From positions 1 to 33,668 of the forward strand of contig NZ_JAUVWH010000017.1 in assembly GCF_030604225.1 (NCBI RefSeq): DNA of 33,668 nucleotides, read 5' to 3'. Under the pieces are notes generated by a model. That model did no database searches, was not told the DNA's origin, and worked only from the letters and a program-made list of their open reading frames with translations. This document shows, piece by piece, positions 2,473-33,668 of this stretch (positions within the stretch are counted from its first letter, which is position 1; the number at the start of each line of letters is the position of its first letter). Source of the stretch: Geoalkalibacter sp. GTDB taxonomy: Bacteria; Desulfobacterota; Desulfuromonadia; Desulfuromonadales; Geoalkalibacteraceae. The position numbers and the translations under genes are program-made.

Positions 2473-2489
2473 GGCGTGTTCCCCCGGCG

Positions 2490-8418: not shown

Positions 8419-8524
8419 TGTACTCCTCCTGGCGTGGTTACTCCCTAAAAACACAACGTACAAAACGGTGGAACGTGGCAGTGTACAAAAATAAAAGACA
8501 AGGTGAACTGGTGGGGTTTGCCTG

Positions 8525-11782: not shown

Positions 11783-11811
11783 TTGACAGGGGCGCGGCAC
11801 TCCTTTACATT
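11783..11811 (+). promoter_or_regulatory. Candidate promoter of the rnf operon
   Basis: TTGACA (11783-11788) and TACATT (11806-11811) are 17 bases apart, with full and 4/6 agreement to consensus. The expected start near 11818 leaves a leader of about 45 bases before the rnfA GTG codon. The hemL promoter points the other way about 30 bases to the left. Confidence 0.55.
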
Positions 11812-11863
11812 ATTCAGCCTGATCCAAATTGCGCTTTTTGGGATAAAGCCGCGGGAGCCCGTA

Positions 11864-12445: not shown

Positions 12446-12473
12446 GCGCGTGTAATGCACGAGGACGGTTCCC

Positions 12474-13322: not shown

Positions 13323-13336
13323 GGTCGCGATCAGGA

Positions 13337-14674: not shown

Positions 14675-14675
14675 C

Positions 14676-16953: not shown

Positions 16954-18168
16954 TCACTCCTCGCGCATTTCCGCCTGCCGCCCCAGCAGGTGAAGGTCGA
17001 CGACGGCCCCCGCCGGCAGATCCCCGGCCTCGGGGGGCAGATAGACCAGCCCATCGGCACTCACCAGGGTGCGCAGAATCCCCGTCTGCTGATCGCCGCT
17101 GGTGCTGACGAGAAAGCGCCCGTCGCGTACGCTGAGGCGCACCCGCAGGAATTGGCCGCGTCCGGGTTTCTTGCGCACCGCTTCCTGCAGAATGCCCTGG
17201 ACGAAAGGCTGAATCACCCTGCGGTGGCCCATCATCCTGAGAATCGCAGGCTTGACCAGCTCCTCGAAGGTGATCAGGGTGGCCACGGGATTGCCCGGCA
17301 GACAGAAAATCGGACGATTTTCCGCACGCAAGAACGCCATGGGCCGGCCGGGCTTGATGTCGATTTTCCAGAAAATTTCCTCGGCGCCGAGTTCCAGGAG
17401 GATCTCGCGCACCAGGTCGCGATCGCCGGTGGAGATGCCGGCCGAGGTGATCAGGCCATCCGCCCGCAGACCTTCGCGCAGCAGCGCCAAGTGGCTTTCC
17501 CGTGTGTCGCGGGCAATCCCGAGCAGAATGGGCTCGGCGCCGATTTCCTGGAGGGCCGCGGCCAGGGCGAAGGCGTTGCTGTTGACGATGCGTCCGTCGC
17601 TCAGGGGCTCGCCCGGCTCCACCAACTCGTCGCCGGTGGAGAGTACGGCAATGCGCGCCCGTCGAAAGACCGGAATCACGACCTTGCCAAAGGAGGCGAG
17701 CATGCCGATTTCGGCGGGGCGCAACAGCGTGCCCGCGGGGATGACCAGCTCGCCGGCGCGCACGTCCTCCGCCTGGCGGCGCACATGGGCGCCTGAGACG
17801 GGTCGCTTGGTGAGGCTCACCCGGCCGGCCTCCTCGCGCGCCTCCTCCATGGGAACCACCGTGTCGGCGCCGATGGGCAACGGAGCGCCGGTCATGATTT
17901 TCATGGCCGTGCCGGGCGCCAGTCCGGCTCCCGGCAGGACGCCCGCCGGCAGATACCCTTCGATGGGCAGGCTGAGCGTGGCGGACAGATCCTCGTGACG
18001 CAGCGCGAACCCGTCCATGGCGGAATTATTCCAGCGGGGCAGATCCCAGGGCGCGTGAACCTCATCGGCCAGAACGCGACCGCAGGCCGCCGACAGGCTG
18101 ATGCGTTCGGAGCCCAGGGGCGAGCAATGATGAAGGATCAGGCGGCGAGCATCCTCAAAGCGCAACAT
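16954..18168 (-). CDS. moeA: Molybdopterin molybdenumtransferase MoeA
   Basis: MoeA inserts molybdate into adenylylated molybdopterin in the last step of Mo-cofactor synthesis (cytoplasm). The 404 residues match the family. The N-terminal domain has RWNNSAMDGFAL (about 45-56), followed by MKIMTGAPLPIGADTVVPME (about 89-108). The MogA-like domain has VLSTGDELVEPG (about 185-196), SNAF, and SAGISTGDRD (about 242-251), then IKPGRPMAF and LPGNPVA. The C-terminal domain IV is complete. It stands alone on the minus strand between rnf and nuo and converges with rnf. A 7-bp GC hairpin (18192-18212) lies in its leader, and no Mo-cofactor riboswitch was recognised. Possible users of its product (formate dehydrogenase, nitrate reductase) are not in the window. 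Confidence 0.95.
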   Translation of the reverse strand: MLRFEDARRLILHHCSPLGSERISLSAACGRVLADEVHAPWDLPRWNNSAMDGFALRHEDLSATLSLPIEGYLPAGVLPGAGLAPGTAMKIMTGAPLPIGADTVVPMEEAREEAGRVSLTKRPVSGAHVRRQAEDVRAGELVIPAGTLLRPAEIGMLASFGKVVIPVFRRARIAVLSTGDELVEPGEPLSDGRIVNSNAFALAAALQEIGAEPILLGIARDTRESHLALLREGLRADGLITSAGISTGDRDLVREILLELGAEEIFWKIDIKPGRPMAFLRAENRPIFCLPGNPVATLITFEELVKPAILRMMGHRRVIQPFVQGILQEAVRKKPGRGQFLRVRLSVRDGRFLVSTSGDQQTGILRTLVSADGLVYLPPEAGDLPAGAVVDLHLLGRQAEMREE

Positions 18169-18516
18169 AGAACTCTCTTCATGGCCTGGGGGGCCGGGCG
18201 GAAAACCCGGCCGCGGTCAACGGATGATCTGGCGATTGTGCCAGTGCGGCGGACCAAAGATCAAGGATGTTCGCGGTCCTCCGGGTCCTGGGGGCAGGAA
18301 GAGACACTGGAATTTCCCGCATCCCGCGACGACCTTGGCGTGATGTGGTTTCAAGGGTCCGCGGTTGCTAGGGATAGTGATGAAAATACAGCAAGTTGGG
18401 CCGGCGTGGACAGCTCTTCGGGACCAAGCCCAACCGGCCGCCGAGGATCTTCTCCGGCCTGCTTAAAAATCAGGATAAACCGCTGTTTTGACAGGCATAT
18501 TCATCGCTAAAAGTGC

Positions 18517-18532
18517 ATACAGTATACTGTAT
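18517..18532. promoter_or_regulatory. Perfect 16-bp palindrome upstream of nuoA, probable operator
   Basis: ATACAGTATACTGTAT is identical on both strands. It consists of half-sites ATACAG and CTGTAT with TATA between. It contains TATACT (18523-18528), a 5/6 match to a -10 box with a weak -35 (TTCATC) 17 bases upstream, and ends 8 bases before the TTGACA at 18540. A protein bound here would block or affect either promoter. The regulator is unknown; GntR-type repressors and Geobacter HgtR, which acts on central-metabolism and energy genes, are candidates by inference only. Confidence 0.65.
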
Positions 18533-18539
18533 TTTTTCC

Positions 18540-18568
18540 TTGACAATGAACGGCATTTATCCTAACTT
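18540..18568 (+). promoter_or_regulatory. Candidate nuo promoter
   Basis: TTGACA (18540-18545) is followed after 17 bases by TAACTT (18563-18568), a full -35 match and a weak -10. An alternative promoter uses TATACT inside the palindrome (18523-18528). Either would leave a leader of 70-115 bases before nuoA. Confidence 0.45.
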
Positions 18569-18647
18569 GCCTTGGCCTGAGACCACCTTGGGCATCTAAG
18601 GGTGTTAGAAGATAGCAATAAAACATCGTTGGGAGGAGACGCTTTCT

Positions 18648-19004
18648 ATGCTTGACATCTATTTGCCGATTCTCGTCCTTATCGGAATTGCCGTGGCGTT
18701 CGCCATTGGTTCGGTGGTTTTCTCCGGCCTGATCGGCATGAAAAAGCCGAGCGCCGTCAAGCTCTCTCCCTACGAGTGCGGTCTGCCGCCCGTCGGCAGT
18801 GCGCGCGAACGGGTGTCCGTCAAGTTCTATCTTGTTGCGGTCGCCTTCATTGTGTTCGACATCGAGGTGGTCTTTCTCTATCCCTGGGCGGTGGTTTTTA
18901 AGACGCTTGGTTGGTATGGCGCCGCTGTCATGGGGGTTTTTCTTTTTGTTCTCATTATCGGCTTCATTTATGACTGGAAAAAAGGAGCACTGGAATGGGA
19001 GTAG
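18648..19004 (+). CDS. nuoA: Complex I membrane subunit NuoA
   Basis: This is a 118-residue subunit with three membrane helices, at the junction of the hydrophilic and membrane arms of NADH:quinone oxidoreductase. The family signatures are present: [11 protein letters not shown] in the loop after helix 1, with the conserved Cys, then [24 protein letters not shown] in helix 2 with its acidic residues. The first gene of the nuo operon, with GGGAGGAG upstream. Its stop lies inside nuoB (10-base overlap), suggesting coupled translation. Confidence 0.96.
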
Positions 19005-19504
19005 ATCAGCCTCTGGGAAGTAATTTCGTCACCACCAGCCTGGACAAGCTTGTCAACTGGTCCCGGTCCCGCTCTCTCTGGCCTATGACGTTCGGTCTGG
19101 CCTGCTGCGCCATTGAAATGATGGCCACCGGCGCCGCCCGCTTTGACCTTGACCGTTTTGGTGTGTTGTTCCGCGCCTCGCCCCGTCAGGCCGACCTGAT
19201 CGTTATTGCCGGCACCGTGACCAAGAAAATGCTGCCGGTCATTCAGACGGTTTACGAGCAGATGCCCGAGCCCCGCTATGTCATCGCCATGGGCGCCTGC
19301 GCCTGCTCCGGCGGCGTTTTTGATACCTACAGCACGGTGCAGGGCATTGACGAGGCGCTGCCCGTGGACGTTTACATCCCCGGTTGTCCTCCGCGCCCCG
19401 AAGGTCTGCTCTACGGTCTGCTCAAGCTTCAGGAGAAGATCATGAAGGAGCGCAATACCTTCGGCGCCGCCATCGGGCTTGGCGAGGTGGTCAGGGAGGT
19501 CTGA
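18995..19504 (+). CDS. nuoB: Complex I subunit NuoB, ligand of the terminal cluster N2
   Basis: This 169-residue subunit passes electrons to quinone through cluster N2. The four ligands are present: adjacent C37 and C38 ([10 protein letters not shown]), C102 (GACACSGG) and C131 (IPGCPPRPE). The N-terminus and length fit bacterial NuoB. The start ATG at 18995 lies inside the end of nuoA. An extra cysteine, C104, sits where many NuoB proteins have Asn (GSCANSGG), with no known effect. Confidence 0.96.
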
Positions 19505-19552
19505 TCCCTGGCCTTGTGTTGATTCGAATACCTTGTGGATGAGGATAGTAGG

Positions 19553-20044
19553 ATGACCGATCAGGCTGCAGTCGAAAAGCTCAAGGCCAAGTTTCCCGGA
19601 TCCGTGCTCGAAGTCAAGGAGTTTCGCGGGGAGTTGACCCTTACCGTTAAGGCCGAGGACATCGTGGCCATCTGCACCTTCTGCAAGAAGGAGCTTGGCT
19701 ACACCATGCTGGCCGATCTGGCCGGTTTGGATCTGTCGGCCATGGGTGTGGCGGGGCCGCGCTTTCAGGTGGTCTACAACATTTACAACATCAAGGCCAA
19801 GCAGCGCCTGCGTCTCAAGGCGCCCGTCGAGGAGCGCGGTCCGCGCATCGACACGGTGAGCGGCGTCTGGGGCTCGGCCAACTGGCTGGAGCGCGAGTGC
19901 TGGGACCTGATGGGGATTTCCTTCAACAACCATCCCGATCTGCGTCGCATTCTCATGCCCGACGATTGGGTCGGTCACCCGTTGCGCAAGGATTATCCGG
20001 TTCAGGGTCCGGACCGTGAGCCCTATCAGGGCCGCCAGATCTGA
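19553..20044 (+). CDS. nuoC: Complex I subunit NuoC (30-kDa)
   Basis: With the ATG at 19553 (GAGGA 7 bases upstream) the protein has 163 residues. WLERECWDLMGISFNNHPDLRRILMPDDW is the core family signature, here cited as WLERECWDLMGI and FNNHPDLRRILMPDDW, followed by HPLRKDYPV. NuoC binds NuoD and helps shape the connecting arm. It is not fused to NuoD, unlike in E. coli. A GTG 6 codons upstream would leave no room for a ribosome site. Confidence 0.95.
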   Translation: MTDQAAVEKLKAKFPGSVLEVKEFRGELTLTVKAEDIVAICTFCKKELGYTMLADLAGLDLSAMGVAGPRFQVVYNIYNIKAKQRLRLKAPVEERGPRIDTVSGVWGSANWLERECWDLMGISFNNHPDLRRILMPDDWVGHPLRKDYPVQGPDREPYQGRQI

Positions 20045-20086
20045 CCGGAATGAATTCGTAAAACTCCAAAGGAACGAGGAAACGCC

Positions 20087-21268
20087 ATGGCAGCGATGAC
20101 CGAAACCATGACTATCAATATGGGGCCCCAGCATCCTTCCACGCACGGGGTGTTGCGGCTTGTTCTGGAGCTTGACGGCGAAAACGTCGTCAAGGCCACT
20201 CCGCATATCGGCTTTCTCCACCGCGGCGTGGAAAAGCTCTCCGAGTACCGCACCTACCATCAGGTTATTCCTCTGACCGATCGTCTCGATTACCTGGCGC
20301 CCATGAGCAACAACCTCGGCTATGTGCTGGCCGTGGAAAAGCTCCTGGGGATCACCGACCAGATTCCCGAGCGCGCCAAGGTCATTCGCGTGATGCTCGC
20401 CGAGCTGACCCGTATCAAGAGCCATCTGGTGTGGCTCGCCTGTCACGCCCTCGATATCGGCGCCATGACCGTGTTCATCTACTGCTTCCGCGAGCGCGAG
20501 CACATCATGGAGATGTACGAGAAGATCTCCGGCGCGCGCATGACCTCCAACTATTTCCGCGTCGGCGGTCTCTCCGCCGATCTGCCCGCCGGCTTCGAGA
20601 AGGAAGTGCGCGAATTTATCGATGCAATGCCTGGCCATATCGAAACCTATGAGGGTCTGCTGACGGGCAACAAGATCTGGCAGAAGCGCATCGTGGGCGT
20701 CGGCGTCATCAGCGGCGAGGACGCGCTGGATATCGGCATCACCGGCGGCAGTCTGCGGGGTTCCGGCATCGACTGGGATCTGCGACGCGACCACCCCTAC
20801 AGCGGCTACGAGGATTACGATTTCAAGGTTCCGGTCGACGACGGCTGCGATACCTGGGCGCGCTACAAGGTGCGCCTTGATGAAATGCGCGAATCCTGCA
20901 AGATCGTGCGTCAGGCCTTGGATAAACTCAAGCCCGGCCCGATTCTGGCCGACGTTCCCAAGGTCTGTCTGCCGCCCAAGCAGGACGTGGTCAATACCAT
21001 CGAAGGTTTGATCCATCATTTCAAGATCATCACCGAGGGCTTCAAGCCCGAAGCCGGCGAGATTTATCAGAGCGTCGAGGCCCCCAAGGGCGAATTGGGT
21101 TTCTATCTGGTGTCCGATGGCTCCGCCCGTCCCTATCGCATGAAGATTCGTCCTCCCTCCTTTCTCAACCTGCAGGCATTGCCGCAGATGGTGGAGGGCA
21201 GGCTGATCGCCGACGTCGTCGCGGTCATTGGAACTCTCGACATCGTGCTTGGCGACATCGACCGTTAA
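20087..21268 (+). CDS. nuoD: Complex I subunit NuoD (49-kDa), quinone-site subunit
   Basis: The 393-residue protein starts MAAMTETMTINMGPQHPSTHG, here shortened: NMGPQHPSTHGVLR near residues 11-24 is the hallmark, with the quinone-contacting His. HIGFLHRGVEKL, RLDYLAPMSNN and the C-terminal DIVLGDIDR end complete the family match. Together with NuoB it forms the menaquinone pocket near N2. As in other Nuo complexes, the NiFe ligands of the hydrogenase relatives are missing. It is preceded by AGGAACGAGG and lies 42 bases after nuoC. Confidence 0.96.
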   Translation: MAAMTETMTINMGPQHPSTHGVLRLVLELDGENVVKATPHIGFLHRGVEKLSEYRTYHQVIPLTDRLDYLAPMSNNLGYVLAVEKLLGITDQIPERAKVIRVMLAELTRIKSHLVWLACHALDIGAMTVFIYCFREREHIMEMYEKISGARMTSNYFRVGGLSADLPAGFEKEVREFIDAMPGHIETYEGLLTGNKIWQKRIVGVGVISGEDALDIGITGGSLRGSGIDWDLRRDHPYSGYEDYDFKVPVDDGCDTWARYKVRLDEMRESCKIVRQALDKLKPGPILADVPKVCLPPKQDVVNTIEGLIHHFKIITEGFKPEAGEIYQSVEAPKGELGFYLVSDGSARPYRMKIRPPSFLNLQALPQMVEGRLIADVVAVIGTLDIVLGDIDR

Positions 21269-21294
21269 CCTAACGCCGTAGAGAGGTGTTCTTC

Positions 21295-21792
21295 ATGAGC
21301 AACGCGGAAGCGCAGGTGGTCCAGGAAGAAATCGACCTTGGCCCGGCCAACAAGGTGATCGACAAGTATCTCAACATGAAGGGCGCGCTCATGCCTGTTC
21401 TGCAGGAGGTGCAGGATGCCTACGGCTATCTGCCCGAGCCGTGCATTCATCTGATTTCCGAGCGCCTCAATGTCTACTTGAGCCAAATTTACGGGGTGCT
21501 GACCTTTTACGCTCAATTTCACCTGGAGCCGCGCGGCAAATACATCGTGCGTGTCTGCATGGGGACGGCCTGTCACGTCAAGGGCGCCGGCCGCATCGGC
21601 GATACTCTGAGCGAATTGCTCGGCATCGGCCATGCCGAAACGACCGAGGATCTGAAGTTTACGGTTGAGCATGTGGCCTGCATCGGGGCTTGCGGCATGG
21701 CACCGGTCATCATGGTCAATGAGGCGACCTACGGGAGCATGTCCGTGCAGAAAATGGGCGAAATCGTCGCCAAATACCGGGCGATGGACTAG
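21295..21792 (+). CDS. nuoE: Complex I subunit NuoE (24-kDa), [2Fe-2S] protein
   Basis: The ATG at 21295 (GAGAGG upstream) gives 165 residues; a GTG three codons earlier is less likely. Ligands of the [2Fe-2S] cluster N1a are C88 and C93 (CMGTACHVKG) and C129 and C133 (CIGACGMAPVI). The thioredoxin-like fold and length are normal. It works with NuoF and NuoG in NADH oxidation. It stands as a separate gene, although the next gene, nuoF, carries a second domain of similar fold at its N-terminus. Confidence 0.96.
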   Translation: MSNAEAQVVQEEIDLGPANKVIDKYLNMKGALMPVLQEVQDAYGYLPEPCIHLISERLNVYLSQIYGVLTFYAQFHLEPRGKYIVRVCMGTACHVKGAGRIGDTLSELLGIGHAETTEDLKFTVEHVACIGACGMAPVIMVNEATYGSMSVQKMGEIVAKYRAMD

Positions 21793-21840
21793 CAGGCGTC
21801 TCTCTCAAGCCAAACCATTCAAGCGTTGGGGAATTGACAT

Positions 21841-23622
21841 ATGGCCGCGATCGAAGAGCAAATCAGGATTCTTATCTGCCAAGGCACGGGTGGCTTGGCT
21901 TCGGGTGCCAGGGAGGTGGAAGAGGCCTTTCGGGCGGAATTCGAAAAGCATGGTGTCGATGCCAAGGTCGGCAAGCGCTGCACGGTGGTCGGAACCGGCT
22001 GTCGCGGCCTGTGCGCCAATGACGTGCTGGTGGATATTGTCATCCCCGGGCAGGAAGCCGTGACCTACGACTTTGTCAAGCCCGAGTTGGTGCCGCAACT
22101 TGTCGAGGAACACATTCTTACCGGGCAGGTCGTCGAAAAGAAGAAGGCCGGCCCCTACTATCAGAAGTTCCTGGAAAAACAGATGCGCGTGGTGTTTTCG
22201 CGCTGCGGCACCATCGACGCAGAGAGCCTCGAGGATTTTCTGGCGCACGACGGCTTTGTCGGCATCCGCAAGGCCGTGACCATGAAGCCCCAGGAAGTCA
22301 TCGAGGAAGTCAAGAAGTCCGGTCTGCGCGGCCGTGGGGGCGGTGGTTTTCCCACCGGCGTCAAGTGGAGCTTCTGCGCGGCCTCGCCGGGTACCGACAA
22401 ATACCTGATCTGCAACGCCGACGAAGGTGACCCGGGGGCCTTCATGGACCGCTCGATTCTCGAGGGCGACCCCTACGGCCTCATCGAGGGGATGATGATC
22501 GCCTCCTACGCCATCGGCGCCAAATACGGTTATGTCTATGTGCGCGCCGAGTATCCCTTGGCCATCAAGCGTCTGCAAAAGGCCATCGATACCTGCTACG
22601 AAAAAGGGTTCCTGGGGAAAAATTGTCTCGGCCTGGGGTTTGATTTCGATCTGCGCATCAAGGCCGGCGCCGGTGCCTTTGTCTGCGGCGAGGAAACCGC
22701 GCTCATGGCCTCCATCGAGGGCGAACGCGGCATGCCTCGCCCCCGCCCGCCATTTCCCGCGGTGCGCGGTCTCTGGACCAAGCCGACCAACATCAACAAC
22801 GTCGAAACCTTCGCCAACGTTTCCTATATCTTCTATCGCGGCGCCGACTGGTTTGCTTCCATCGGCACGGACGGCACCAAGGGTACCAAGATTTTCGCCC
22901 TCACCGGCAAAATCAAGCATACCGGCCTGGTCGAGGTTCCCGCCGGCATCACCATGCGCGAGGTTATTTACGACGTTTGCGGCGGCATTCTCAACAACCG
23001 CAAATTCAAGGCGGTGCAGGCGGGCGGTCCCTCGGGCGGTTGCCTGCCCGGCGAGGCTATCGACGCCCAGGTCGACTATGACTCGCTGATCAAGGCCGGG
23101 GCGATGATGGGTTCGGGCGGTCTGGTCGTCATGGACGAAACCACCTGCATGGTGGACATCGCGCGCTTCTTCCTCAACTTCACGCGCATGGAATCCTGCG
23201 GCAAATGCGTTCCTTGCCGCATCGGCCTCAAGATCATGCTCGACATTCTGGAGCGCATCACCGAGGGCAAGGGCCATCCTGGTGACATCGAACTGCTTCA
23301 GGACATGTGTTACGACATCAAGAAAGCCTCTCTCTGCGGTCTCGGCCAGACGGCGCCCAATCCGGTGCTTTCAACCATCCGTTATTTCCGCCACGAATAC
23401 GAGGCGCATATCGAGCATCAGCGCTGCCCGTCCAATTCCTGCAAGGCGCTGTTGAAGTTCGAGGTCGTCGAGGCGGCCTGCAAGAAGTGTGGACTCTGTT
23501 TCAAGGTCTGTCCGGTGGATGCTGTCCGGTGGGAGAAGGGACAGCTTGCCATCATCGACAAGGAGAAATGCACCAAGTGCACCTCCTGCTACGATGCCTG
23601 CCGCTTCATGGCCATCGAATAG
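21841..23622 (+). CDS. nuoF: Complex I NADH-binding subunit NuoF with HydB/HndC-type extra domains
   Basis: At 593 residues it is about 150 longer than E. coli NuoF. The domains are: a thioredoxin-like ferredoxin domain (1-about 90); the NuoF core with GRGGGGFPTG (164-173, NADH/FMN), CNADEGDPGA (191-200) and GAGAFVCGEETALM (276-289); cluster N3 ligands C453, C456, C459 and C499; and a C-terminal two-cluster ferredoxin (C547/C550/C553/C557 and C577/C580/C583/C587). This plan is that of HndC and of HydB from bifurcating hydrogenases. In the first domain the usual four Cys (CxGTGC...GCxGxC) are C13, C54 and C58, with Gly18 in place of the second. C47 is nearby. Role: NADH oxidation at FMN; a ferredoxin-linked role is possible but unproven. 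GGGGAA lies 8 bases before the ATG. Confidence 0.95.
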   Translation: MAAIEEQIRILICQGTGGLASGAREVEEAFRAEFEKHGVDAKVGKRCTVVGTGCRGLCANDVLVDIVIPGQEAVTYDFVKPELVPQLVEEHILTGQVVEKKKAGPYYQKFLEKQMRVVFSRCGTIDAESLEDFLAHDGFVGIRKAVTMKPQEVIEEVKKSGLRGRGGGGFPTGVKWSFCAASPGTDKYLICNADEGDPGAFMDRSILEGDPYGLIEGMMIASYAIGAKYGYVYVRAEYPLAIKRLQKAIDTCYEKGFLGKNCLGLGFDFDLRIKAGAGAFVCGEETALMASIEGERGMPRPRPPFPAVRGLWTKPTNINNVETFANVSYIFYRGADWFASIGTDGTKGTKIFALTGKIKHTGLVEVPAGITMREVIYDVCGGILNNRKFKAVQAGGPSGGCLPGEAIDAQVDYDSLIKAGAMMGSGGLVVMDETTCMVDIARFFLNFTRMESCGKCVPCRIGLKIMLDILERITEGKGHPGDIELLQDMCYDIKKASLCGLGQTAPNPVLSTIRYFRHEYEAHIEHQRCPSNSCKALLKFEVVEAACKKCGLCFKVCPVDAVRWEKGQLAIIDKEKCTKCTSCYDACRFMAIE

Positions 23623-23655
23623 CCGAACCCCCAGACGATCAAGGACGAGGTCAAG

Positions 23656-26139
23656 ATGGTTACTCTGACGATAGATGGAAAACAGGTCCAGGCGAGCAAG
23701 GCCGCTACCATTCTGGACGCGGCCATGGGGGCGGGCATTACGATTCCCGTGCTCTGTCACGCCAAGAAGCTTCTCCCCTACGGCGCCTGCCGGGTTTGCC
23801 TGGTGGAAGTCGAGCAGATGAAGGGGCGCTTGATTCCGGCCTGCACCACCCCGGTGACCGAAGGCATGGTCGTGACCACCATGTCGCCTGAAATCAAGAA
23901 GGTCCGCAAAACGGTGCTCGAATTCCTGCTGGTCAACCATGTGGTGGATTGCCCGGTGTGCGACAAGGGCGGGGAGTGCGATCTGCAGGATCTGACCTAC
24001 GAATACGAAGTCACCACCAATCGTTTCAAGGACGCCAAGTTCAATCTGGAAACCGATGAACGCAATCCCTTCATCGAGCGCAACATGAACCGCTGCGTGC
24101 TCTGTGGCAAGTGCGTGCGGGTTTGCGATGAAATTGTGTCCTATGGTTCCTACAGCTTCATCAATCGCGGTTTCGACACCAAGGTGGCGACGGCTTACGA
24201 CCGGGGCCTGGATTGCGAATTCTGCGGCCAGTGCGTCTCCATGTGTCCGGTGGGCGCATTGCTGCCCCGGCCGTTCAAGTTCAAGGCGCGCCCCTGGCAG
24301 CTCAAGGAAGTCGACACGGTGTGCGGCTATTGCGGCAACGGCTGCACCGTGACCTTGGGCGTGCTGGACAATAAGGTGGAAACCATCCGCTTCAACGACA
24401 AGATCGGCGTCAACGACGGCAATCTCTGCGTGCGCGGGCGGTTCGGTTATTCCTATATCAATGCCGAGGAGCGGCTCAAGCGCCCCTTGGTTCGCAAGAA
24501 CGGCCGCCTGGAACCCGCTACCTGGAGTGAAGCCATGGAGGCCGTGGCGGCTGGTTTCGAGAAGGCGCGCGCGGAGAAGGGGCTCGGCATCCTCAGCGGC
24601 GGCCGACTGACCAATGAGGAATATTTTTATCTTGGGCATCTCGCCGACAAGGTGCTCAAGACGCCTCATCTCGATCACAGCGGTGGTGAATGCTACAAGG
24701 GCCTGAGCCAGGGACTGGCTGAAACCCTAGGCATCAAGGCCTCCACCGGCACCTTCCCCCAGGTGGAGGGATGCGATGCGATTCTTGCCATCCGCTCGGA
24801 TTTCTACGAAACGCACCCGGTTTTCGGCATGGTGGTCAACCAGGCGGTGAAGCGCCATGATGCCAAACTGGCGATCATCAGTGACAAAAAAGGTAAGTTC
24901 ACCAAATTGCCCGGCGCCAAGACCCTGCTGACCAAACCTGGAACCGAAGTCGCCATCCTCAATGCCATGGCCCAGGTTCTGCTGACCGAGGGGCTGGCCG
25001 TCACCGAAGGGGTCACCGGTGTCGAGGGCTTGCGCGCAGCTCTGGCCGATTACGCCCCCCAGGCGGTCGCCGCCAAAACCGGCGTGCCCGCCGAAGCCAT
25101 CGAGGCGGCGGCACGTGCCTTCGCCAAAGGAAAAAATAAAGCCATTCTCATGGCTTATGGTCTTCCCTACAGTGCCCAATCCCGCGAGCTCGGTGTTGCC
25201 GCCGCCAACCTGGCCATTCTGGCGGGCGTCTTTGACGGCGAGAAAGGCGGCCTGTACCTTTGCGGGGAAAAAGCCAACAGTCAGGGTGCCATCGATCAGT
25301 GGATCCTGCCGCGTCCCAATGGGATGGGAGCTCAGGCGATGCTGCAAGCGGCCGCCGAAGGCAACCTCTCTGCCCTCTATGTCATCGGCGAGGATCCGCT
25401 GTTGAGCTATCCGGACCGGGCCAAGGTCGCGGCGGCACTGGACAAGATTCCCTTCCTGGTCGTCCAGGATCTGTTCATGACCGACACCGCGCGTGAAGCC
25501 GATGTGATTCTTCCGGCGGTGTCCTTCGCGGAAAAGAACGGTACCTTCACCAACGCGGAGCGGCGCGTGCAGCGCCTGCGGCCCGGCGTGAAGAGCCCCG
25601 GCGAGGCACGCAGCGACCTGTCTATCTTCGCCCTGCTCGCGGCGCGCATGAAGGATCCCCTGGTCTTCACCGGTCCGGAGGCTGTTTTCGCCGAAATCGC
25701 TCAGACCGTGCCGGAATACGCGGGGCTTTCCTTCAATGCCATTGGACCCGAGGGCGTGGTCTGGGGGGGCGAGCATCTGGCGACCAAGACCCGCAACCTG
25801 GTGGCGGTCAAGGGCGGCGAACCCCTGGCCGCGCGCTTCCAAATGGTGACGGGGAGCGCCCTCTTCCACAGTGGTACCCTGTCGGTCAGATCCAAGGGGC
25901 CCATGTCCGCCCTTCCCGAGCCCTATGCCGAATTCTGTCTCGAGGATGCCGCGGAACTCGGCCTCGCCGAAGCGCAAACGGTTTGCCTCAAGGGCAACGG
26001 CGAGGAATTGCGCCTCAAGGTGAAGGTCGGTAAGCGCATGCCGCGAGGGGTCATCTTCGTGCCTTATCATTTCGGCAGCGCCGGGGTTAATCGCGTATAT
26101 CGCGGGGAAACTTCGGTAACCGTGGAAGTCAGCAAGTAG
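23656..26139 (+). CDS. nuoG: Complex I subunit NuoG (75-kDa) with an FdhF-like domain
   Basis: This 827-residue protein has FeS ligands for [2Fe-2S] N1b at C34, C45, C48 and C63; N5 with His95, C99, C102 and C108; two ferredoxin clusters at C147/C150/C153/C157 and C187/C190/C193/C197; and the extra distal cluster N7 at C223, C226, C230 and C258. The remainder is a molybdopterin-oxidoreductase fold without a recognisable metal-ligand residue. It wires electrons from NuoF toward NuoI and NuoB. The ferredoxin pair after the N5 motif is the arrangement of HydA/NuoG-type proteins. It starts 33 bases after nuoF. Confidence 0.95.
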   Translation: MVTLTIDGKQVQASKAATILDAAMGAGITIPVLCHAKKLLPYGACRVCLVEVEQMKGRLIPACTTPVTEGMVVTTMSPEIKKVRKTVLEFLLVNHVVDCPVCDKGGECDLQDLTYEYEVTTNRFKDAKFNLETDERNPFIERNMNRCVLCGKCVRVCDEIVSYGSYSFINRGFDTKVATAYDRGLDCEFCGQCVSMCPVGALLPRPFKFKARPWQLKEVDTVCGYCGNGCTVTLGVLDNKVETIRFNDKIGVNDGNLCVRGRFGYSYINAEERLKRPLVRKNGRLEPATWSEAMEAVAAGFEKARAEKGLGILSGGRLTNEEYFYLGHLADKVLKTPHLDHSGGECYKGLSQGLAETLGIKASTGTFPQVEGCDAILAIRSDFYETHPVFGMVVNQAVKRHDAKLAIISDKKGKFTKLPGAKTLLTKPGTEVAILNAMAQVLLTEGLAVTEGVTGVEGLRAALADYAPQAVAAKTGVPAEAIEAAARAFAKGKNKAILMAYGLPYSAQSRELGVAAANLAILAGVFDGEKGGLYLCGEKANSQGAIDQWILPRPNGMGAQAMLQAAAEGNLSALYVIGEDPLLSYPDRAKVAAALDKIPFLVVQDLFMTDTAREADVILPAVSFAEKNGTFTNAERRVQRLRPGVKSPGEARSDLSIFALLAARMKDPLVFTGPEAVFAEIAQTVPEYAGLSFNAIGPEGVVWGGEHLATKTRNLVAVKGGEPLAARFQMVTGSALFHSGTLSVRSKGPMSALPEPYAEFCLEDAAELGLAEAQTVCLKGNGEELRLKVKVGKRMPRGVIFVPYHFGSAGVNRVYRGETSVTVEVSK

Positions 26140-26161
26140 GGGACCTTACGAGGAGCGCGCC

Positions 26162-27124
26162 ATGCAATGTTCCAAGTGTAACGCGTCCGTTTCCGTCCAG
26201 GCCAAATTCTGCGATCAGTGCGGGGCCAGTCTCGCCAGCGACGCGGACTTCGTGCATGCCCGGGCCCTGGATCTTTTTCATCGTGGAATGATCGAGGAAG
26301 CGGTTCGCAACTGGGACGAGGTACTGCGGATGAATCCTGCTTCCGGTTCGGCCCATTATTACAAGGGGTTGGCCCTTTACGACCAAGGCGATCTGGAAGG
26401 CGCCGTGGGGTGTTTCACCCAAGCCTTGGTCGGGGAGAAGGAGCGTTTTCGCGTTTACTTTAAGCTCGGCATGGCTCAATACGGCCTTGGTGATCTCAAT
26501 GCCAGCATCGAGAGTTTCCGCAAGGCCGTGGAGCTCAATCCCAAAAGCGCGGAAACCCATTATCGCCTCGGGCTCTCCTATCTGCGCAATACAGATCTGG
26601 CCAAGGCCGAGGAGGCCCTGCGGGAAGCGGCGCGCATCAACCCCAGCTATACCCGCGTGCTCTACATGCTCGGCATGGTGTATTCCCAGAAAGGGGACTA
26701 CCGTTCCGCCATCGACCAGTTTCGACGGGTGGTGGAATTGAGCCCGACCTACACGGCGGCACGCTTCGAACTGGGGATGGCCTATTTCAAGGAAGGCATG
26801 CTAGCCGAAGCGGCGGAGCAATTCACCCAGGCCGGCGAAACCAATGCCCGTTTTGCTCCGGCCTTCTATATGCAGGGCGAGGCGCGGCGCCGGATGGGAG
26901 AGTTTTCCGAGGCCATCAGCGCCTACGGCAAGGTTTTGGAGGTTAATCCCAAGGATGCCGACGCCTTGGTGCGGATCGCCGAATGCAACATGCAGCTCGA
27001 TTTCCTGGACGAAGCGCGCAAGGCCATCCACAAGGCCCTCGCTCTCAACCCCAACCATCGCGAGGCGCAATATCTCAGCAAGCATCTTGGGGAAATGGCT
27101 ACTCCCCACAAGCCTGGATTTTGA
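26162..27124 (+). CDS. Zinc-ribbon and TPR-repeat protein inside the nuo operon, function unknown
   Basis: This 320-residue protein is not a complex I subunit. The N-terminus is a small zinc ribbon (C3, C6, C17, C20; CSKC...CDQC). From about residue 30 to 301 there are about eight tetratricopeptide repeats of 34 residues (for example FHRGMIEEAVRNWDEVLRMNP and AVELNPKSAETHYRLG). There is no signal or membrane segment, so it is cytoplasmic. It sits 22 bases after nuoG and 34 before nuoH on the same strand, with GAGGAGCG as ribosome site, and so is part of the operon. TPR proteins commonly act as assembly or scaffold factors, so a role in building complex I is plausible but unproven. In the nuo operons I know, nuoG is followed directly by nuoH. 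Confidence 0.8.
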   Translation: MQCSKCNASVSVQAKFCDQCGASLASDADFVHARALDLFHRGMIEEAVRNWDEVLRMNPASGSAHYYKGLALYDQGDLEGAVGCFTQALVGEKERFRVYFKLGMAQYGLGDLNASIESFRKAVELNPKSAETHYRLGLSYLRNTDLAKAEEALREAARINPSYTRVLYMLGMVYSQKGDYRSAIDQFRRVVELSPTYTAARFELGMAYFKEGMLAEAAEQFTQAGETNARFAPAFYMQGEARRRMGEFSEAISAYGKVLEVNPKDADALVRIAECNMQLDFLDEARKAIHKALALNPNHREAQYLSKHLGEMATPHKPGF

Positions 27125-27158
27125 TGAGATCATTTAAAACTTTGCAGAGAGGATTGCC

Positions 27159-28202
27159 ATGACGCCCGAGTTTGTGAGTCTCTCCAACAACTGGCCCTTG
27201 TATCTGACCACGATGATCGTGAAGATTTTGGTGGTCTTCGTGGTCGTTATTCTGATCGTTGCCTACGCGACCTGGCTGGAGCGCAAGGTCATCGGTCACA
27301 TGCAAACCCGCCTCGGGCCCATGGAAACGGGATGGCACGGGCTTTTGCAGCCGATCGCCGATGGTCTCAAGCTGTTCTTCAAGGAAGACATCATCCCGGA
27401 AAAGGCAGCCAAGTTCACTTTCCTGCTTGCCCCGATGATGCTGCTGGTGCCCGCGTTCATCACCTTCGCGGTGGTGCCTTTCGGTCCCGATAAGGTAATC
27501 GGCGGCTACCTGGTGCCCATGCAGATCACCGACCTCAACGTCGGCGTGCTCTACGTGCTGGCCATGGCCGGGCTCGGCGCCTACGGGATCGTGCTCGCCG
27601 GATGGTCGTCCAACTCCAAGTATTCCCTGATGGGCGGCATCCGTTCCACCGCGCAGATGATCTCCTACGAACTCGCCGCCGGTCTGTCCATCGTGGCCGT
27701 GTTCATGCTGGCGGAAACCCTGAGCCTGCGGCAGATCGTCGCCCTGCAGATGGAACCGCTCTGGGGCACCATCAGCTTTCTGCCCAACTGGTACGTCTTC
27801 AGCCAGCCCTTGGCCTTCGGTCTGTTCATCCTGACCTCGTTGGCGGAGATCAACCGCACGCCCTTCGACCTTCCCGAGGCGGAATCGGAACTGGTGTCGG
27901 GTTTCTGCACGGAATATTCCTCCATGAAGTACGCCCTGTTCTTCATGGCCGAATATGCCAACATGGTGGTCATCGCCGCGATTGCCGCCACCCTGTTCCT
28001 CGGCGGCTGGTCCGGCCCCTTCTTTGGCCCCATCAACCTTCTGCTCAAGATCCTGGCGTTCATGTTCTTCGCCATCTGGCTGCGCGCCACCATGCCGCGT
28101 GTCCGTTATGACCAGTTGATGACCATGGGCTGGAAGGTTCTCATTCCGCTGGCACTCGCCAATGTGATTGTCACCGGCGTGGTCGTCCTCCTGATGCAAT
28201 AA
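27159..28202 (+). CDS. nuoH: Complex I membrane subunit NuoH
   Basis: This 347-residue subunit has about eight membrane helices and links the quinone site to the membrane arm. Recognised are ATWLERKVIGHMQTRLGPM (about residues 37-55), GLLQPIADGLKLFFKED near 63-79, EINRTPFDLPEAESELVSGF near 230-249 with its conserved acidic chain, and RATMPRVRYDQLM near the C-terminus. The ATG has GAGAGGA upstream. It follows the TPR gene by 34 bases. Confidence 0.95.
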   Translation: MTPEFVSLSNNWPLYLTTMIVKILVVFVVVILIVAYATWLERKVIGHMQTRLGPMETGWHGLLQPIADGLKLFFKEDIIPEKAAKFTFLLAPMMLLVPAFITFAVVPFGPDKVIGGYLVPMQITDLNVGVLYVLAMAGLGAYGIVLAGWSSNSKYSLMGGIRSTAQMISYELAAGLSIVAVFMLAETLSLRQIVALQMEPLWGTISFLPNWYVFSQPLAFGLFILTSLAEINRTPFDLPEAESELVSGFCTEYSSMKYALFFMAEYANMVVIAAIAATLFLGGWSGPFFGPINLLLKILAFMFFAIWLRATMPRVRYDQLMTMGWKVLIPLALANVIVTGVVVLLMQ

Positions 28203-28232
28203 AACCTGTTCGAGGAGAAGAGGGATATAACC

Positions 28233-28628
28233 ATGTTCAAAGAATTCGCCAAAGGGTTGAGCATCACCTTCAAGCATCTGCTGCCGGGCCACAGCACAAC
28301 GGTGCAGTACCCCCACGTCAAGTTGACGCCTTCGGATCGTTTCCGCGGCCTGCATCGCCTGGTGCCGACCCAGGATCGGGAAAAATGCGTGGCCTGTTAC
28401 CTGTGCCCCACGGTCTGTCCGGCCAAGTGCATCACGGTGGAATCCGCCGAAAATGAAAAAGGCGAGAAGTATCCCCGGGTGTACCAGATCGATCTGCTGC
28501 GCTGTATCTTCTGTGGTTACTGCGTCGAAGCCTGTCCGGTGGAAGCGATTGAAATGACCGGCGAATACGAGTTGGCCAACTACAGGCGGTCTGATTTCGA
28601 TTTCACCAAGCAGCGCTTGCTGCGCTAA
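28233..28628 (+). CDS. nuoI: Complex I subunit NuoI (two 4Fe-4S clusters)
   Basis: This 131-residue ferredoxin-type subunit carries clusters N6a and N6b: C52, C55, C58 and C62 in the first motif, and C91, C94, C97 and C101 in the second (each motif also supplies the fourth Cys of the other cluster). It bridges NuoG and NuoB. An additional Cys66 follows the first motif. GAGGAG lies upstream of the ATG, with another purine run (GAGGGAT) closer in. Confidence 0.95.
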   Translation: MFKEFAKGLSITFKHLLPGHSTTVQYPHVKLTPSDRFRGLHRLVPTQDREKCVACYLCPTVCPAKCITVESAENEKGEKYPRVYQIDLLRCIFCGYCVEACPVEAIEMTGEYELANYRRSDFDFTKQRLLR

Positions 28629-28648
28629 GGGGAAAGGAGCAAAGCCTC

Positions 28649-29152
28649 ATGGAATTGTTGTTCTTTTATCTGGTTGCACTGGTGGCGATCCTTTCCGCCT
28701 TCATGGTGGTCAAGTGCAAGAACCCGGTCAACAGCGCCATCTCGCTGGTGATGACCTTCTTCTGCCTGGCCATTCTCTATGTCATGCTCTATGCCCCCTT
28801 CATGGCGGCGGTTCAAGTCCTGGTCTACGCCGGGGCGATCATGGTTCTGATCCTGTTCGTCATCATGCTCCTTAATCTCGGCCCCGAGATGATGGAGCGC
28901 TTTCAGCACGGAGTGGTGGGCGGTGCCATCGTTGCGGGCATCGTCATGATTCAAGCCGTGATGTTCGTCAATCGCGGCGAGATGGCGGGTATCTCCGGTG
29001 ACGTCACCCGCGATCAGGTGCTTGAAGTAGGCCACATGGAACTGATCGGCATGAAGCTCTTCACGGAATTCATGCTGCCTTTCCAGATTGCCGGGATCTT
29101 GTTGCTGATCGCCATCGTGGGCGCCCTTGTGCTGGCTAAAAAAGAAGTCTAA
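28649..29152 (+). CDS. nuoJ: Complex I membrane subunit NuoJ
   Basis: This 167-residue protein has about five membrane helices. The third helix holds [20 protein letters not shown] (about residues 52-71), the family core with its pi-bulge region. [11 protein letters not shown] is the most conserved part. The ATG is preceded by AAAGGAGC. It stands in the standard nuoI-J-K order, 20 bases after nuoI. Confidence 0.94.
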
Positions 29153-29175
29153 ACGGGAACGGACAGGAGTCGATC

Positions 29176-29478
29176 ATGCTTACCGTTTATCATTATCTGG
29201 GTCTCAGCGCCATTCTCTTTGCCCTGGGCACCTACGGGGTTCTGACCCGGCGCAATGCAATTGTCATCTTCATGTGCATCGAGCTTATGCTCAACGCCGT
29301 GAACCTTACCTTCATCTCTCTTTCGAGCTATCTGAACAATCTCGACGGGCAGATCTTCGTCTTCTTCGTCATGTCGGTAGCAGCGGCCGAGGCCGCGGTC
29401 GGACTCGCCCTGATGATCGCTTTCTTCCGCAATAAAGAGTCCGTGGAAGTCGAAGATTTCAACCTGCTCAAATGGTGA
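29176..29478 (+). CDS. nuoK: Complex I membrane subunit NuoK
   Basis: This 100-residue protein has three membrane helices. The conserved acidic residues involved in proton transfer are in [13 protein letters not shown] (Glu36 of IELM) and [12 protein letters not shown] (Glu in helix 3). Length and pattern are typical. It lies 23 bases after nuoJ, with ACAGGAG upstream. Confidence 0.95.
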
Positions 29479-29522
29479 CAGATTTCTGATTCGATCCGAT
29501 CTAATCGACAGAGGAGATGGAA

Positions 29523-31493
29523 ATGTACGACAAGCTATGGCTCATTCCGTTCTTTCCCTTGCTCGGCAGCATCATCAACGGGCTGCTGGGCAAGAAGATC
29601 AAAAACGAGACAATCATCGGGGGTATCGGTACCCTGGCGATTTTCTCCTCCTTCATCGTGTCGGTGCTGTGCTTCATGGAGTTGCGCCTCGACACGGTGA
29701 AATCCCATCAGCAAGTGATTGCCTCCTGGATGTCGGTGGGCAATCTGCAGATCGAGTGGGGTTTTCTTCTTGATCCCCTTTCCGCGGTGATGCTGCTGGT
29801 GGTGACCGGCGTCGGCTCGCTGATCCACCTCTACTCCATCGGTTACATGCATGGCGAGGAAGGGTTCTATCGCTACTTCTCCTACCTCAACCTGTTCGCC
29901 TTCTCCATGCTCATGCTGGTGCTGGGCAACAACGCCATGGTCATGTTCGTGGGCTGGGAAGGCGTGGGTCTGTGCTCCTACCTGCTGATCGGTTACTACT
30001 TTCACAAGCAGAGCGCCGGCGACGCCGCCAAGAAAGCCTTCGTCGTCAACCGCATCGGCGACTTCGGCTTTCTCCTCGGAATTTTCCTGCTGTTCTGGAC
30101 CCTCGGCAGCGAGCACGGCATCTGGACCCTCAATTTCGTCGAAATCGCTCAGCACGGTCATCTGCTTGGCGCGGGCAGCGTGGTGGTGACGATCATTACC
30201 CTGTGCTTTTTCCTCGGCGCCACCGGCAAGTCGGCGCAGATTCCCCTCTACACCTGGTTGCCTGACGCCATGGAAGGCCCCACACCGGTTTCGGCGCTCA
30301 TCCATGCCGCCACCATGGTCACCGCCGGCGTCTATATGATCGGACGCATGAACGGTCTGTTCGCCATGGCGCCCGACACCATGCTGGTGATCGCCATCGT
30401 CGGCGCCGCCACAGCGATCTTCGCCGCTTCCATCGGCCTGGCGCAGAACGACATCAAGCGCGTACTGGCCTATTCGACGGTCTCCCAGCTTGGCTACATG
30501 TTCCTGGCCATGGGCGTCGGTGCTTTTACCGCCGGTATCTTCCACCTCATGACCCACGCGTTCTTCAAGGCCTGTCTGTTCCTCGGCTCCGGCTCGGTTA
30601 TCCACGCCATGCATCACGCCTTGCACAAGGCTCATGCCCATGACGATCCTCAGGACATGCGCAACATGGGCGGGCTGCGCAAGCATATGCCCATCACTTT
30701 CCTGACCTTCCTGATCTCGACCATCGCCATAGCCGGTCTGCCGGGTCTGTCGGGCTTTTTCTCCAAGGACGAAATTCTGCTCTGGTCCCTGGCCGGAAAC
30801 CGCGGGCACTGGTTGCTGTGGCTGGTCGCCTCGCTGGCCGCGGGCATGACCGCCTTCTACATGTTCCGCCTGGTGTTCATGACCTTCTTCGGCAAGGAGC
30901 GCATCGCCGAAAAAGCCAAGAGCTATCTCCATGAGTCGCCCCTGGTCATCACCATTCCGCTGATCGTCCTGGCGGTGCTGGCGGTGTTTGGCGGCTATCT
31001 CAACGTTCCCGCGGTCCTGGGTGGAGCTCATCGCCTGGAGACCTTCCTCAGCCCAGTCTTCGGGGCCGCGCAACAGGCCTACGGCATCGAGCCGCCGCAC
31101 ATGAGCCATGCCGCCGAATACGGCCTCATGGGCCTGGCGGTCGGTATCGCGCTGGTCGGTATCGGCCTGGCCTACCTCATGTATGTCAAGAATCCCGAGA
31201 TGCCTGCCCAACTGGTGGCCAAGGCGCAGGGACTCTACCGCGCCATCTTCAACAAATGGTATGTGGACGAAATTTACGACGCCTTGTTCGTGAATCCCAC
31301 CAAGAAGGCTGGCACCTTCCTGTGGAAAGGCTTCGACGTGGTCGTGGTCGACGGCATCGTCAACGGTGTGGGCTATATCGTCAAAGGGTTTTCCGGGGCT
31401 CTGCGCCTCACCCAGTCCGGTCTGGTGCATAACTATGCGCTGGCCATGGTGGTCGGGGTGATTGTCATGGTGGCTTACTACGTCTTCGGCTAA
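29523..31493 (+). CDS. nuoL: Complex I antiporter-like subunit NuoL
   Basis: This 656-residue membrane protein forms one of the proton channels and ends with the long lateral helix and anchor segments. Essential residues are E146 in FVGWEGVGL and K236 in ATGKSAQIPLYTWLPDAMEGPTP. The His-rich HAMHHALHKAHAH near residue 364 is common in NuoL. The start is set at the second ATG (29523), because the first (29517) directly abuts the GAGGAG ribosome site, leaving no spacing. Confidence 0.95.
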   Translation: MYDKLWLIPFFPLLGSIINGLLGKKIKNETIIGGIGTLAIFSSFIVSVLCFMELRLDTVKSHQQVIASWMSVGNLQIEWGFLLDPLSAVMLLVVTGVGSLIHLYSIGYMHGEEGFYRYFSYLNLFAFSMLMLVLGNNAMVMFVGWEGVGLCSYLLIGYYFHKQSAGDAAKKAFVVNRIGDFGFLLGIFLLFWTLGSEHGIWTLNFVEIAQHGHLLGAGSVVVTIITLCFFLGATGKSAQIPLYTWLPDAMEGPTPVSALIHAATMVTAGVYMIGRMNGLFAMAPDTMLVIAIVGAATAIFAASIGLAQNDIKRVLAYSTVSQLGYMFLAMGVGAFTAGIFHLMTHAFFKACLFLGSGSVIHAMHHALHKAHAHDDPQDMRNMGGLRKHMPITFLTFLISTIAIAGLPGLSGFFSKDEILLWSLAGNRGHWLLWLVASLAAGMTAFYMFRLVFMTFFGKERIAEKAKSYLHESPLVITIPLIVLAVLAVFGGYLNVPAVLGGAHRLETFLSPVFGAAQQAYGIEPPHMSHAAEYGLMGLAVGIALVGIGLAYLMYVKNPEMPAQLVAKAQGLYRAIFNKWYVDEIYDALFVNPTKKAGTFLWKGFDVVVVDGIVNGVGYIVKGFSGALRLTQSGLVHNYALAMVVGVIVMVAYYVFG

Positions 31494-31535
31494 GAGCGCC
31501 CAACCCCTGTTAAGTTGAGATAAGGAGTGATTTCC

Positions 31536-33098
31536 ATGACCGACCACCTGTTGAGCCTGATGACATTCTTCCCGATTCTCGGGATGGTTTTGCTGCTGTT
31601 TATCCCCCGGGATAACCATGGTCTGCTCAAAAGCTTCACCCTGGTCGTGACCCTCGTCACTTTCGTCATTAGCCTCCCCCTGGCTTTTGATGATGTATTC
31701 AAGACTTCGGCGGCCTTTCACTACACGGAATTCGCTCGCTGGATCAGCGTGGGCGATTACTTCCAGATGAATTACAACATCGGTGTCGACGGGATCAGCC
31801 TCTGGTTGGTGTTGCTGACCACCTTCATCATGCCGGTGACGGTTCTCTCGACCTGGAAGGCGGTGGACAAGAACGTCAAAGGGTTCATGGCGTTGATGCT
31901 GCTGCTGGAAACGGCCATGCTCGGGGCCTTCATCTCCCTTGATTTGTTCCTGTTCTACATCTTCTGGGAACTGATGCTGATTCCCATGTACTTCATGATC
32001 GGCATCTGGGGCGGCAAGAACCGTATCTACGCAGCGGTCAAGTTCTTCATCTACACCGCCGTGGGTTCGTTGCTGATGCTGGTGGCCATCATCTACGTCT
32101 ACTATCTGTCGCTGCAGTCCGGCGTCGCCTTCGAGAACGGCTTCAGCATCCTGCACTTCTATCGTCTTGATATCCCTCTGGATTTGCAGATCTGGCTGTT
32201 CCTGGCCTTTGCCTTCAGCTTCGCCATCAAGGTGCCCATGTTCCCGGTGCACACCTGGTTGCCCGATGCCCACACCGAAGCGCCGACGGCCGGTTCCGTG
32301 ATCCTGGCGGCCATCCTGCTGAAGATGGGAACCTACGGCTACCTGCGTTTCGCCATGCCCCTGTTTCCCGACGCCACCTTCAAGTTCATTCCCTTCCTGT
32401 CGGTGCTGGCGGTTATCGGCATCATCTACGGCGCCCTGGTCGCCATGATGCAGGATGACGTGAAGAAACTGGTGGCCTACTCCTCCGTTTCGCACCTGGG
32501 CTTCGTCATGCTGGGCCTGTTCGCCCTTAACCTGCAGGGCTTTGCCGGCGGCATGATTCAAATGATCAACCATGGTATTTCCACCGGCGCGCTGTTCCTT
32601 ATCGTCGGCTTTATCTATGAACGGCGTCACACCCGCCTGATCGCCGACTTCGGCGGCCTCGCCAAGCAGATGCCGGTGTTCGCCACCATCTTCATGATCG
32701 TGACCTTCTCATCCATCGGCCTGCCCGGCACCAACGGCTTCGTCGGCGAATTTCTCATCCTCATGGGCGCCTTCGAGAGCGATCTCCGCTGGTTTGCCGT
32801 GATCGCCACCACCGGGGTTATCTTCGCCGCCGTCTACATGTTGTGGATGTTCCAGAGGGTGATGTTCGGCGAATTGAAAAACCCCGCCAATCAGAAACTG
32901 CAGGATCTCAACGCCCGCGAAGTCGCGCTGATGATGCCCCTGCTGCTGTTCGTTTTCTGGATCGGTTTGTACCCCAACACCTTTTTCGAGAAAATGAATC
33001 CGGCCCTGGAAAACATGGTGCAGCAGATCAAGGGCCGCCAGATGGCTCAGGTTGAGGTGGTCGACACGCTCGCCCATCATGACGCGCTGCTGAAGTAA
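31536..33098 (+). CDS. nuoM: Complex I antiporter-like subunit NuoM
   Basis: This 520-residue proton channel subunit has about 14 helices. The conserved glutamate lies in FYIFWELMLIPMYF and the lysine in FAIKVPMFPVHTWLPDAHTEAPT. It starts at ATG 31536 with AAGGAG 8 bases upstream; an in-frame GTG at 31527 overlaps the ribosome site and is rejected. It lies 42 bases after nuoL and 46 before nuoN. Confidence 0.95.
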   Translation: MTDHLLSLMTFFPILGMVLLLFIPRDNHGLLKSFTLVVTLVTFVISLPLAFDDVFKTSAAFHYTEFARWISVGDYFQMNYNIGVDGISLWLVLLTTFIMPVTVLSTWKAVDKNVKGFMALMLLLETAMLGAFISLDLFLFYIFWELMLIPMYFMIGIWGGKNRIYAAVKFFIYTAVGSLLMLVAIIYVYYLSLQSGVAFENGFSILHFYRLDIPLDLQIWLFLAFAFSFAIKVPMFPVHTWLPDAHTEAPTAGSVILAAILLKMGTYGYLRFAMPLFPDATFKFIPFLSVLAVIGIIYGALVAMMQDDVKKLVAYSSVSHLGFVMLGLFALNLQGFAGGMIQMINHGISTGALFLIVGFIYERRHTRLIADFGGLAKQMPVFATIFMIVTFSSIGLPGTNGFVGEFLILMGAFESDLRWFAVIATTGVIFAAVYMLWMFQRVMFGELKNPANQKLQDLNAREVALMMPLLLFVFWIGLYPNTFFEKMNPALENMVQQIKGRQMAQVEVVDTLAHHDALLK

Positions 33099-33144
33099 TA
33101 CCGCGATAGATTTGGCATAACACCGCATCCGGAGGAGCGTTTCA

Positions 33145-33668
33145 ATGGAAAACCTGGTGCAAGATGCAATCCAGAATGTCAATTTGGCGGCCGTCATGCC
33201 GTCCCTGGTCCTGTGCTGTTTCGGCCTGGCGATTCTGATGGTCTCCGTCTTCTCGCCCAAGGGTAAGACCACCCACGTCGCCTGGCTGAGCTTCGCAGCG
33301 CTGATCGTGACCGGGGCCGTGGCCCTGATGGGCTGGAACGACCGGCAGGTCGGCTTTTACGGTGCGGTGGAGCTTGACAATTTCGCCACCTTCTTCAACA
33401 TCACCTTTATCGTCGCCGCGGCCCTGACCATCCTCATGTCCGACGACTATCTCAAGCGTGAGGACTATCCCATTGGGGAATACTACCCCCTGATCCTGTT
33501 CACCACCGCTGGGGCCATGTGGATGGCGTCGGGCACCGACATGATGACCATCTTCCTCGGCCTGGAAGTCCTGTCCATCAGCCTCTATGTGCTCGCGGGC
33601 CTGTTCCGTAACCAGCTGCGTTCCAACGAGGCCGGCCTGAAGTATTTCCTGCTCGGCTCCTTTTCCAC
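33145..33668 (+). CDS. nuoN: Complex I antiporter-like subunit NuoN (partial, C-terminus beyond the window)
   Basis: The first 174 residues are present, with a GGAGGAG ribosome site 8 bases upstream. Several membrane helices are visible, including SGTDMMTIFLGLEVLSISLYVLAGL, which holds the conserved glutamate of NuoN, and GLKYFLLGSFS at the window edge. By family the complete protein should have around 480 residues. It follows nuoM in the standard nuoL-M-N order. Confidence 0.94.
   Translation, partial: MENLVQDAIQNVNLAAVMPSLVLCCFGLAILMVSVFSPKGKTTHVAWLSFAALIVTGAVALMGWNDRQVGFYGAVELDNFATFFNITFIVAAALTILMSDDYLKREDYPIGEYYPLILFTTAGAMWMASGTDMMTIFLGLEVLSISLYVLAGLFRNQLRSNEAGLKYFLLGSFS

Follow-up and report, generated by a model that had tools for sequence, protein, structure and literature searches.

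A zinc-ribbon TPR gene between nuoG and nuoH in Desulfuromonadales: a possible soluble adaptor linked to complex I

In the nuo operon of Geoalkalibacter sp., a gene for a tetratricopeptide repeat (TPR) protein with an N-terminal zinc ribbon separates nuoG from nuoH, which raises the question of what such a gene may contribute to complex I. To our knowledge, bacterial complex I is usually regarded as a 14-subunit machine without a dedicated helper encoded in its operon, and a literature search found no paper on a TPR gene within nuo. The window, i.e., the whole stretch of DNA analysed, comprises 33,668 nucleotides and contains the following features at this locus:

23656..26139, + strand: nuoG, upstream neighbour (ORF; Pfam Fer2_4, NADH-G_4Fe-4S_3, Molybdopterin)
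26150..26155, + strand: GAGGAG, likely ribosome-binding site of the TPR gene (sequence reading)
26162..27124, + strand: zinc-ribbon/TPR gene, ATG start, 320 aa (ORF, Pfam, AlphaFold2)
26162..26233, + strand: N-terminal zinc ribbon, residues 1-24, CxxC...FCxQCG (Pfam DZR, Zn_Ribbon_1; Cys invariance)
26243..27094, + strand: eight TPRs and a cap helix, residues 28-311 (Pfam, AlphaFold2, repeat register)
27101..27121, + strand: C-terminal tail TPHKPGF, residues 314-320 (C-termini of nuo-linked copies; pLDDT; synonymous codon changes)
27159..28202, + strand: nuoH, downstream neighbour (ORF; Pfam NADHdh, E=3.5e-125)

The TPR gene starts 22 nt behind the end of nuoG and ends 34 nt ahead of nuoH, and these gaps, the open reading frame and the Pfam assignments of its neighbours confirmed the initial description of a TPR gene with a C2C2 zinc ribbon packed between the two. 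Scanning positions 18000-33668 for promoters and terminators revealed no promoter-like site; a terminator-like stem at 26042-26061, within nuoG, was dismissed as noise (19 such sites found vs 14.2 expected). As judged by eye from the open reading frames, genes resembling an rnf cluster (11783-16884) closely precede nuo, separated from it by a moeA-like gene on the opposite strand. Furthermore, the minus strand at 497-4117 and 6556-8556 appears to encode CxxCH haem-motif proteins together with a ferredoxin-like protein and membrane proteins that resemble cytochrome and quinol-linked redox modules.

Based on Pfam TPR_2 (181.3 bits, cut-off 27, E=1.4e-55), the encoded protein belongs to the TPR repeat proteins. 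The ribbon cysteines C3-C6-C17-C20 are invariant in 39/39 aligned sequences, and the ribbon itself scores barely above the cut-offs of Zn_Ribbon_1 (26.4 bits, cut-off 25) and DZR (27.4, cut-off 27.3). By this motif the window protein has the CxxC...CxxC arrangement of zinc-ribbon proteins, zinc binding itself being predicted. No hydrophobic stretch was found in it (highest 19-residue Kyte-Doolittle mean 0.53; pI 6.5). An AlphaFold2 model calculated with 39 orthologues as input (mean pLDDT 94.7) comprises the ribbon and 17 helices, with values below 50 solely at residues 316-320.

Closest solved structures in a fold search were a consensus TPR superhelix (8chy) and the TPR domain of O-GlcNAc transferase (1w3b), a likeness that is generic for TPR superhelices and uninformative on function. 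Among NCBIfam models, the best matches were the bacterial multi-TPR proteins MamA (144.5 of 200 bits), PrsT (120.2 of 312.2) and PilW (91.6 of 154), all below the curated cut-offs; they have the TPR superhelix in common with the window protein, and we know of neither a zinc ribbon nor a TPHKPGF tail in them. Ycf3 (NF002725) reached 59.7 of the 143 bits required. It is the TPR protein of photosystem I assembly and hence tied to a bioenergetic complex; unlike in that comparison, the TPR gene of nuo persists without its supposed complex, as described below. By these scores, the window protein does not fall within the MamA, PilW or Ycf3 equivalogs.

Within the order, the gene represents a single-copy family present in 40 of 136 genomes (E<=1e-40), i.e., with orthologues in 39 further genomes. 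One of these orthologues (G117), a 199-residue fragment lying at a contig end, was omitted from the alignment and the TPR tree, yet its C-terminus entered the tail counts. A profile search of the order returned the identical 40 genomes down to 3.2e-91 (a fragment), followed by generic TPR matches from 1.6e-32. This gap, together with the next match in the own genome being only 27% identical, excluded a paralogue of another TPR gene. Searching the class (277 genomes, E<=1e-30) recovered the same 40 genomes, every one of this order, and all five carriers in a sample of the phylum (395 genomes, E<=1e-35) likewise belong to it; neither search found the family outside the order. In a pattern-seeded contig scan with 80 loci kept, six Desulfuromonadales MAG loci showed 56-64% identity, all within nuo, and the other loci 34% or less. 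The six (L038-L043) were taken to be the already counted genomes G102, G124, G095, G100, G123 and G101 and were not added again. The restriction to this lineage that had been presumed at first reading was thus upheld, the gene being found in one order only.

In order to evaluate the link to nuo, junctions were surveyed across the order. A nuoH of this operon's class (>400 bits) occurs in 100 of the 136 genomes, 28 of which carry the TPR gene. In these, nuoH directly follows the gene in 28/28 cases and nuoG directly precedes it in 27/28, the exception (G123) being a contig end; intergenic distances are 9-26 nt on the nuoG side and -4 to 67 nt on the nuoH side. Because of this constancy, the gene is, on the evidence of gene order, truly nuo-linked. 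Among the 72 nuoH genomes without the TPR gene, nuoG and nuoH are joined in 47, with an estimated gap of 49-107 nt (42 of 47 junctions), nuoD and nuoH are joined in 24, and one (G009) lies at a contig edge. A motif search of the 72 non-carrier stretches detected no remnant of the TPR gene or its tail.

None of the 24 nuoD-nuoH operons contains the TPR gene. They belong to family f7 (13 genomes) and genus g20 of family f8 (11), where a full NuoG of this class is absent genome-wide (loci L188, L192, L195, L200, L202, L203, L206-L208, L211, L213-L218, L220, L221, L274, L277, L278, L281-L283). These operons seem to be devoid of nuoE-F-G, whereas others in the order retain these genes.

The remaining 12 carriers come from a single family, f17 (14 genomes searched), which keeps the gene elsewhere in the genome and without this nuo operon. 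The survey therefore gave a divided answer: the strong nuo link stood (28/28 in the same slot), but occurrence is scattered and the link is broken in f17. Neither a nuoH nor a full NuoG of this class was found in the 14 f17 genomes, the best NuoG matches reaching about 40% identity over residues 1-553. An NADHdh-family protein is still present in 9 of the 12 f17 carriers. In G109, G110 and G111 (100, 89 and 99% complete), no match to NADHdh (PF00146) was found, nor one to Complex1_49kDa (PF00346; seven f17 genomes tested). Since NuoG-like matches remain in G109 (about 39% identity, residues 1-553), some NuoG-related enzyme exists there. A published comparison (PMC2669807) describes Pelobacter carbinolicus as lacking the 14-subunit complex I and retaining a 12-subunit one; the words tetratricopeptide and TPR are absent from the main text of its genome paper (PMC3543383).

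The relocated gene is found directly behind pcnB in 10 f17 genomes, and the contig ends at this point in G122 and G117. A UbiD-family gene follows downstream in 11/11 stretches read, and in seven f17 genomes hydantoinase/oxoprolinase A and B genes lie between the TPR gene and UbiD (L152, L153, L148-L150, L151, L155). pcnB was located in 50/51 stretches, with L151 and G122 named as exceptions. The pcnB site was rejected as a shared ancestral place: 0/40 pcnB stretches outside f17, of unequal reach, show the gene.

Values of dN/dS ranged from 0.04 to 0.12 in seven of eight pairs, f17 pairs included, the eighth being saturated. Judged by these ratios, the TPR gene is under purifying selection, also in f17; the low values and the orthologues excluded a chance reading frame or a pseudogene.

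By our own count, 58 columns are invariant across the 39 aligned sequences. TPR positions 2, 5, 9, 12 and 13, which we take to be the usual ligand-facing ones, are invariant at 17/40 sites compared with 22/168 other non-structural sites (Fisher p=7.5e-5, relatedness ignored); structural TPR positions are invariant at 13/64. Invariant residues of the groove include H32, H40, Y66, Y73, D74, R97, E131, Y134, R142, R165, Q176 and E240. These residues and the zinc ribbon are kept in f17 copies as in nuo-linked ones, the ribbon of one f17 copy (L153) scoring slightly under the Pfam cut-off. Because the same groove residues are kept in f17, the pattern suggests one shared groove ligand that would be independent of this nuo operon.

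The C-terminal end behaves differently in the two settings. The sequence TPHKPG[F/Y] forms the exact C-terminus of 23/28 nuo-linked copies and of 0/12 f17 copies. With a threshold of 85%, just four positions set the 28 nuo-linked copies apart from the 11 full-length f17 copies: residues 168 and 280, and columns 318 and 319 of the tail. Five of the 28 (G003, G090, G093, G094, G123) lack the exact tail while nuo is kept: G003 ends in TPHKPG plus four further residues, G090 has an altered, extended form, and G093, G094 and G123 have no tail at the C-terminus. In G090 (L033), the TPR gene has a longer reading frame, which shares four bases with nuoH. The tail is predicted to be disordered in the window protein (AlphaFold2, pLDDT <50 at 316-320). 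Its codons vary synonymously among copies, which implies that selection acts on the protein and not on the DNA. A degenerate 21-base tail pattern matched 25/136 genomes, 23 of these matches being the tails described here; the reversed-letter control gave 0. Of the two extra matches (G008, G112), the one in G008 was read and proved not to be the end of an open reading frame in that frame, so that it does not point to a second tail-bearing protein.

Since the tail-less f17 copies form one clade in the TPR tree, tail loss together with nuo loss counts as one event, not 12. In this tree, the f17 copies constitute one side of a well-supported branch (100/97) and join the f3 copies at 94/91, below starred support; a single-gene pcnB tree places f17 among carrier families. 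A NuoG+NuoH tree was built from 69 rows, namely 42 non-carriers and 27/28 carriers (the contig of G123 has no nuoG); five later nuoG junctions of the 47 lie outside it. On this tree, the distribution of the gene requires a minimum of seven changes, four of them forced by well-supported branches. Judged from these trees, the simplest account would be that the gene entered nuo once, long ago, and was later lost several times, and that f17 lost the operon while the gene moved elsewhere. The trees being unrooted, the reverse direction, from elsewhere into nuo, is possible.

Based on these results, a soluble two-ended adaptor, with the groove at one end and the tail at the other, is tentatively proposed as the function of the TPR protein (probability about 0.4). 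The groove would bind a partner other than complex I, given that groove and ribbon are retained in genomes devoid of this nuo operon, including three with neither a NuoH- nor a NuoD-family match. The tail, as the chief feature by which nuo-linked copies consistently differ from relocated ones, may serve as a tether to complex I or to a component working with it. Being translated from the same message as the nuo subunits, the protein would be made in proportion to complex I; overall, it would recruit the groove partner to the enzyme, be it for regulation, for quality control or as a metabolic link. The protein would accordingly not be needed for complex I as such. This explanation is favoured because a dedicated factor is at odds with the presence and absence of the gene, and a pure passenger leaves the exact slot and the gene's own tail unexplained. 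Against it speak the five nuo-linked copies that have nuo but not the exact tail, the single event behind tail loss in f17, the NuoG-related enzyme of G109, and the fact that the analysis turned up neither a partner nor a binding site for the tail.

A possible alternative is a general cytoplasmic TPR adaptor or co-chaperone without any physical tie to complex I, located in nuo for co-expression with respiration, the tail having a function of its own. Retention without this operon in 12 genomes, without NuoH- or NuoD-family matches in three, a groove with the same invariant residues in both settings and the existence of 47 nuoG-nuoH operons without the gene are all in line with such a protein. 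However, all 28 nuo copies, from many families, occupy one exact place even though other locations are evidently open to the gene, and the tail is confined to them.

The first-pass annotation had proposed an accessory factor that joins the two arms or aids cluster insertion into NuoG. The exact slot between the NuoG and NuoH genes, the tight spacing and the occurrence of nuo-linked copies only beside nuoG-containing operons (0/24 nuoD-nuoH operons) speak for a dedicated assembly or stability factor of this kind. On gene content, it is nevertheless unlikely, since 47 sister operons do without the gene and 12 f17 genomes keep it without the operon. The gene is not present wherever complex I is, being missing from these 47 operons and from the same genomes altogether; nor is it absent where complex I is absent, as f17 and in particular G109, G110 and G111 illustrate. 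What stands of the proposal is a real, conserved and lineage-limited gene at an exact slot; the arm-joining or NuoG cluster-insertion role is not supported. A proteolysis or quality-control adaptor, in which ribbon and groove deliver a client protein to a chaperone or protease and the flexible tail acts as the delivery signal, would fit the conserved groove and disordered tail but is improbable, as no protease-specific feature was found and the tail is limited to nuo-linked copies.

Regarding the two-ended adaptor, Rv3143 of Mycobacterium tuberculosis offers a partial parallel: it is proposed (PMC9274095) as a component of Nuo modulating its activity through NuoD, and it is likewise lineage-specific and soluble; unlike the TPR protein, it is a response regulator.

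In a more specific and rather speculative version, the tail would dock on the 14-subunit complex I and the groove would bring in an older partner, coupling another cytoplasmic process to the enzyme by a tethering adaptor of an undescribed kind; in fermentative relatives, loss of the enzyme would have been accompanied by loss of the tail, with the older function retained. If the TPR protein is instead a mere passenger, an exact operon slot common to many families need not imply a dedicated function. The natural series of genomes with tail and enzyme, with enzyme but no tail, and with no enzyme would allow a tether to be told apart from the function of the groove. If the adaptor reading is true, a soluble, operon-encoded adaptor would be added to bacterial complex I, and the coupling would be a trait of a single order of bacteria that reduce metals and sulfur.
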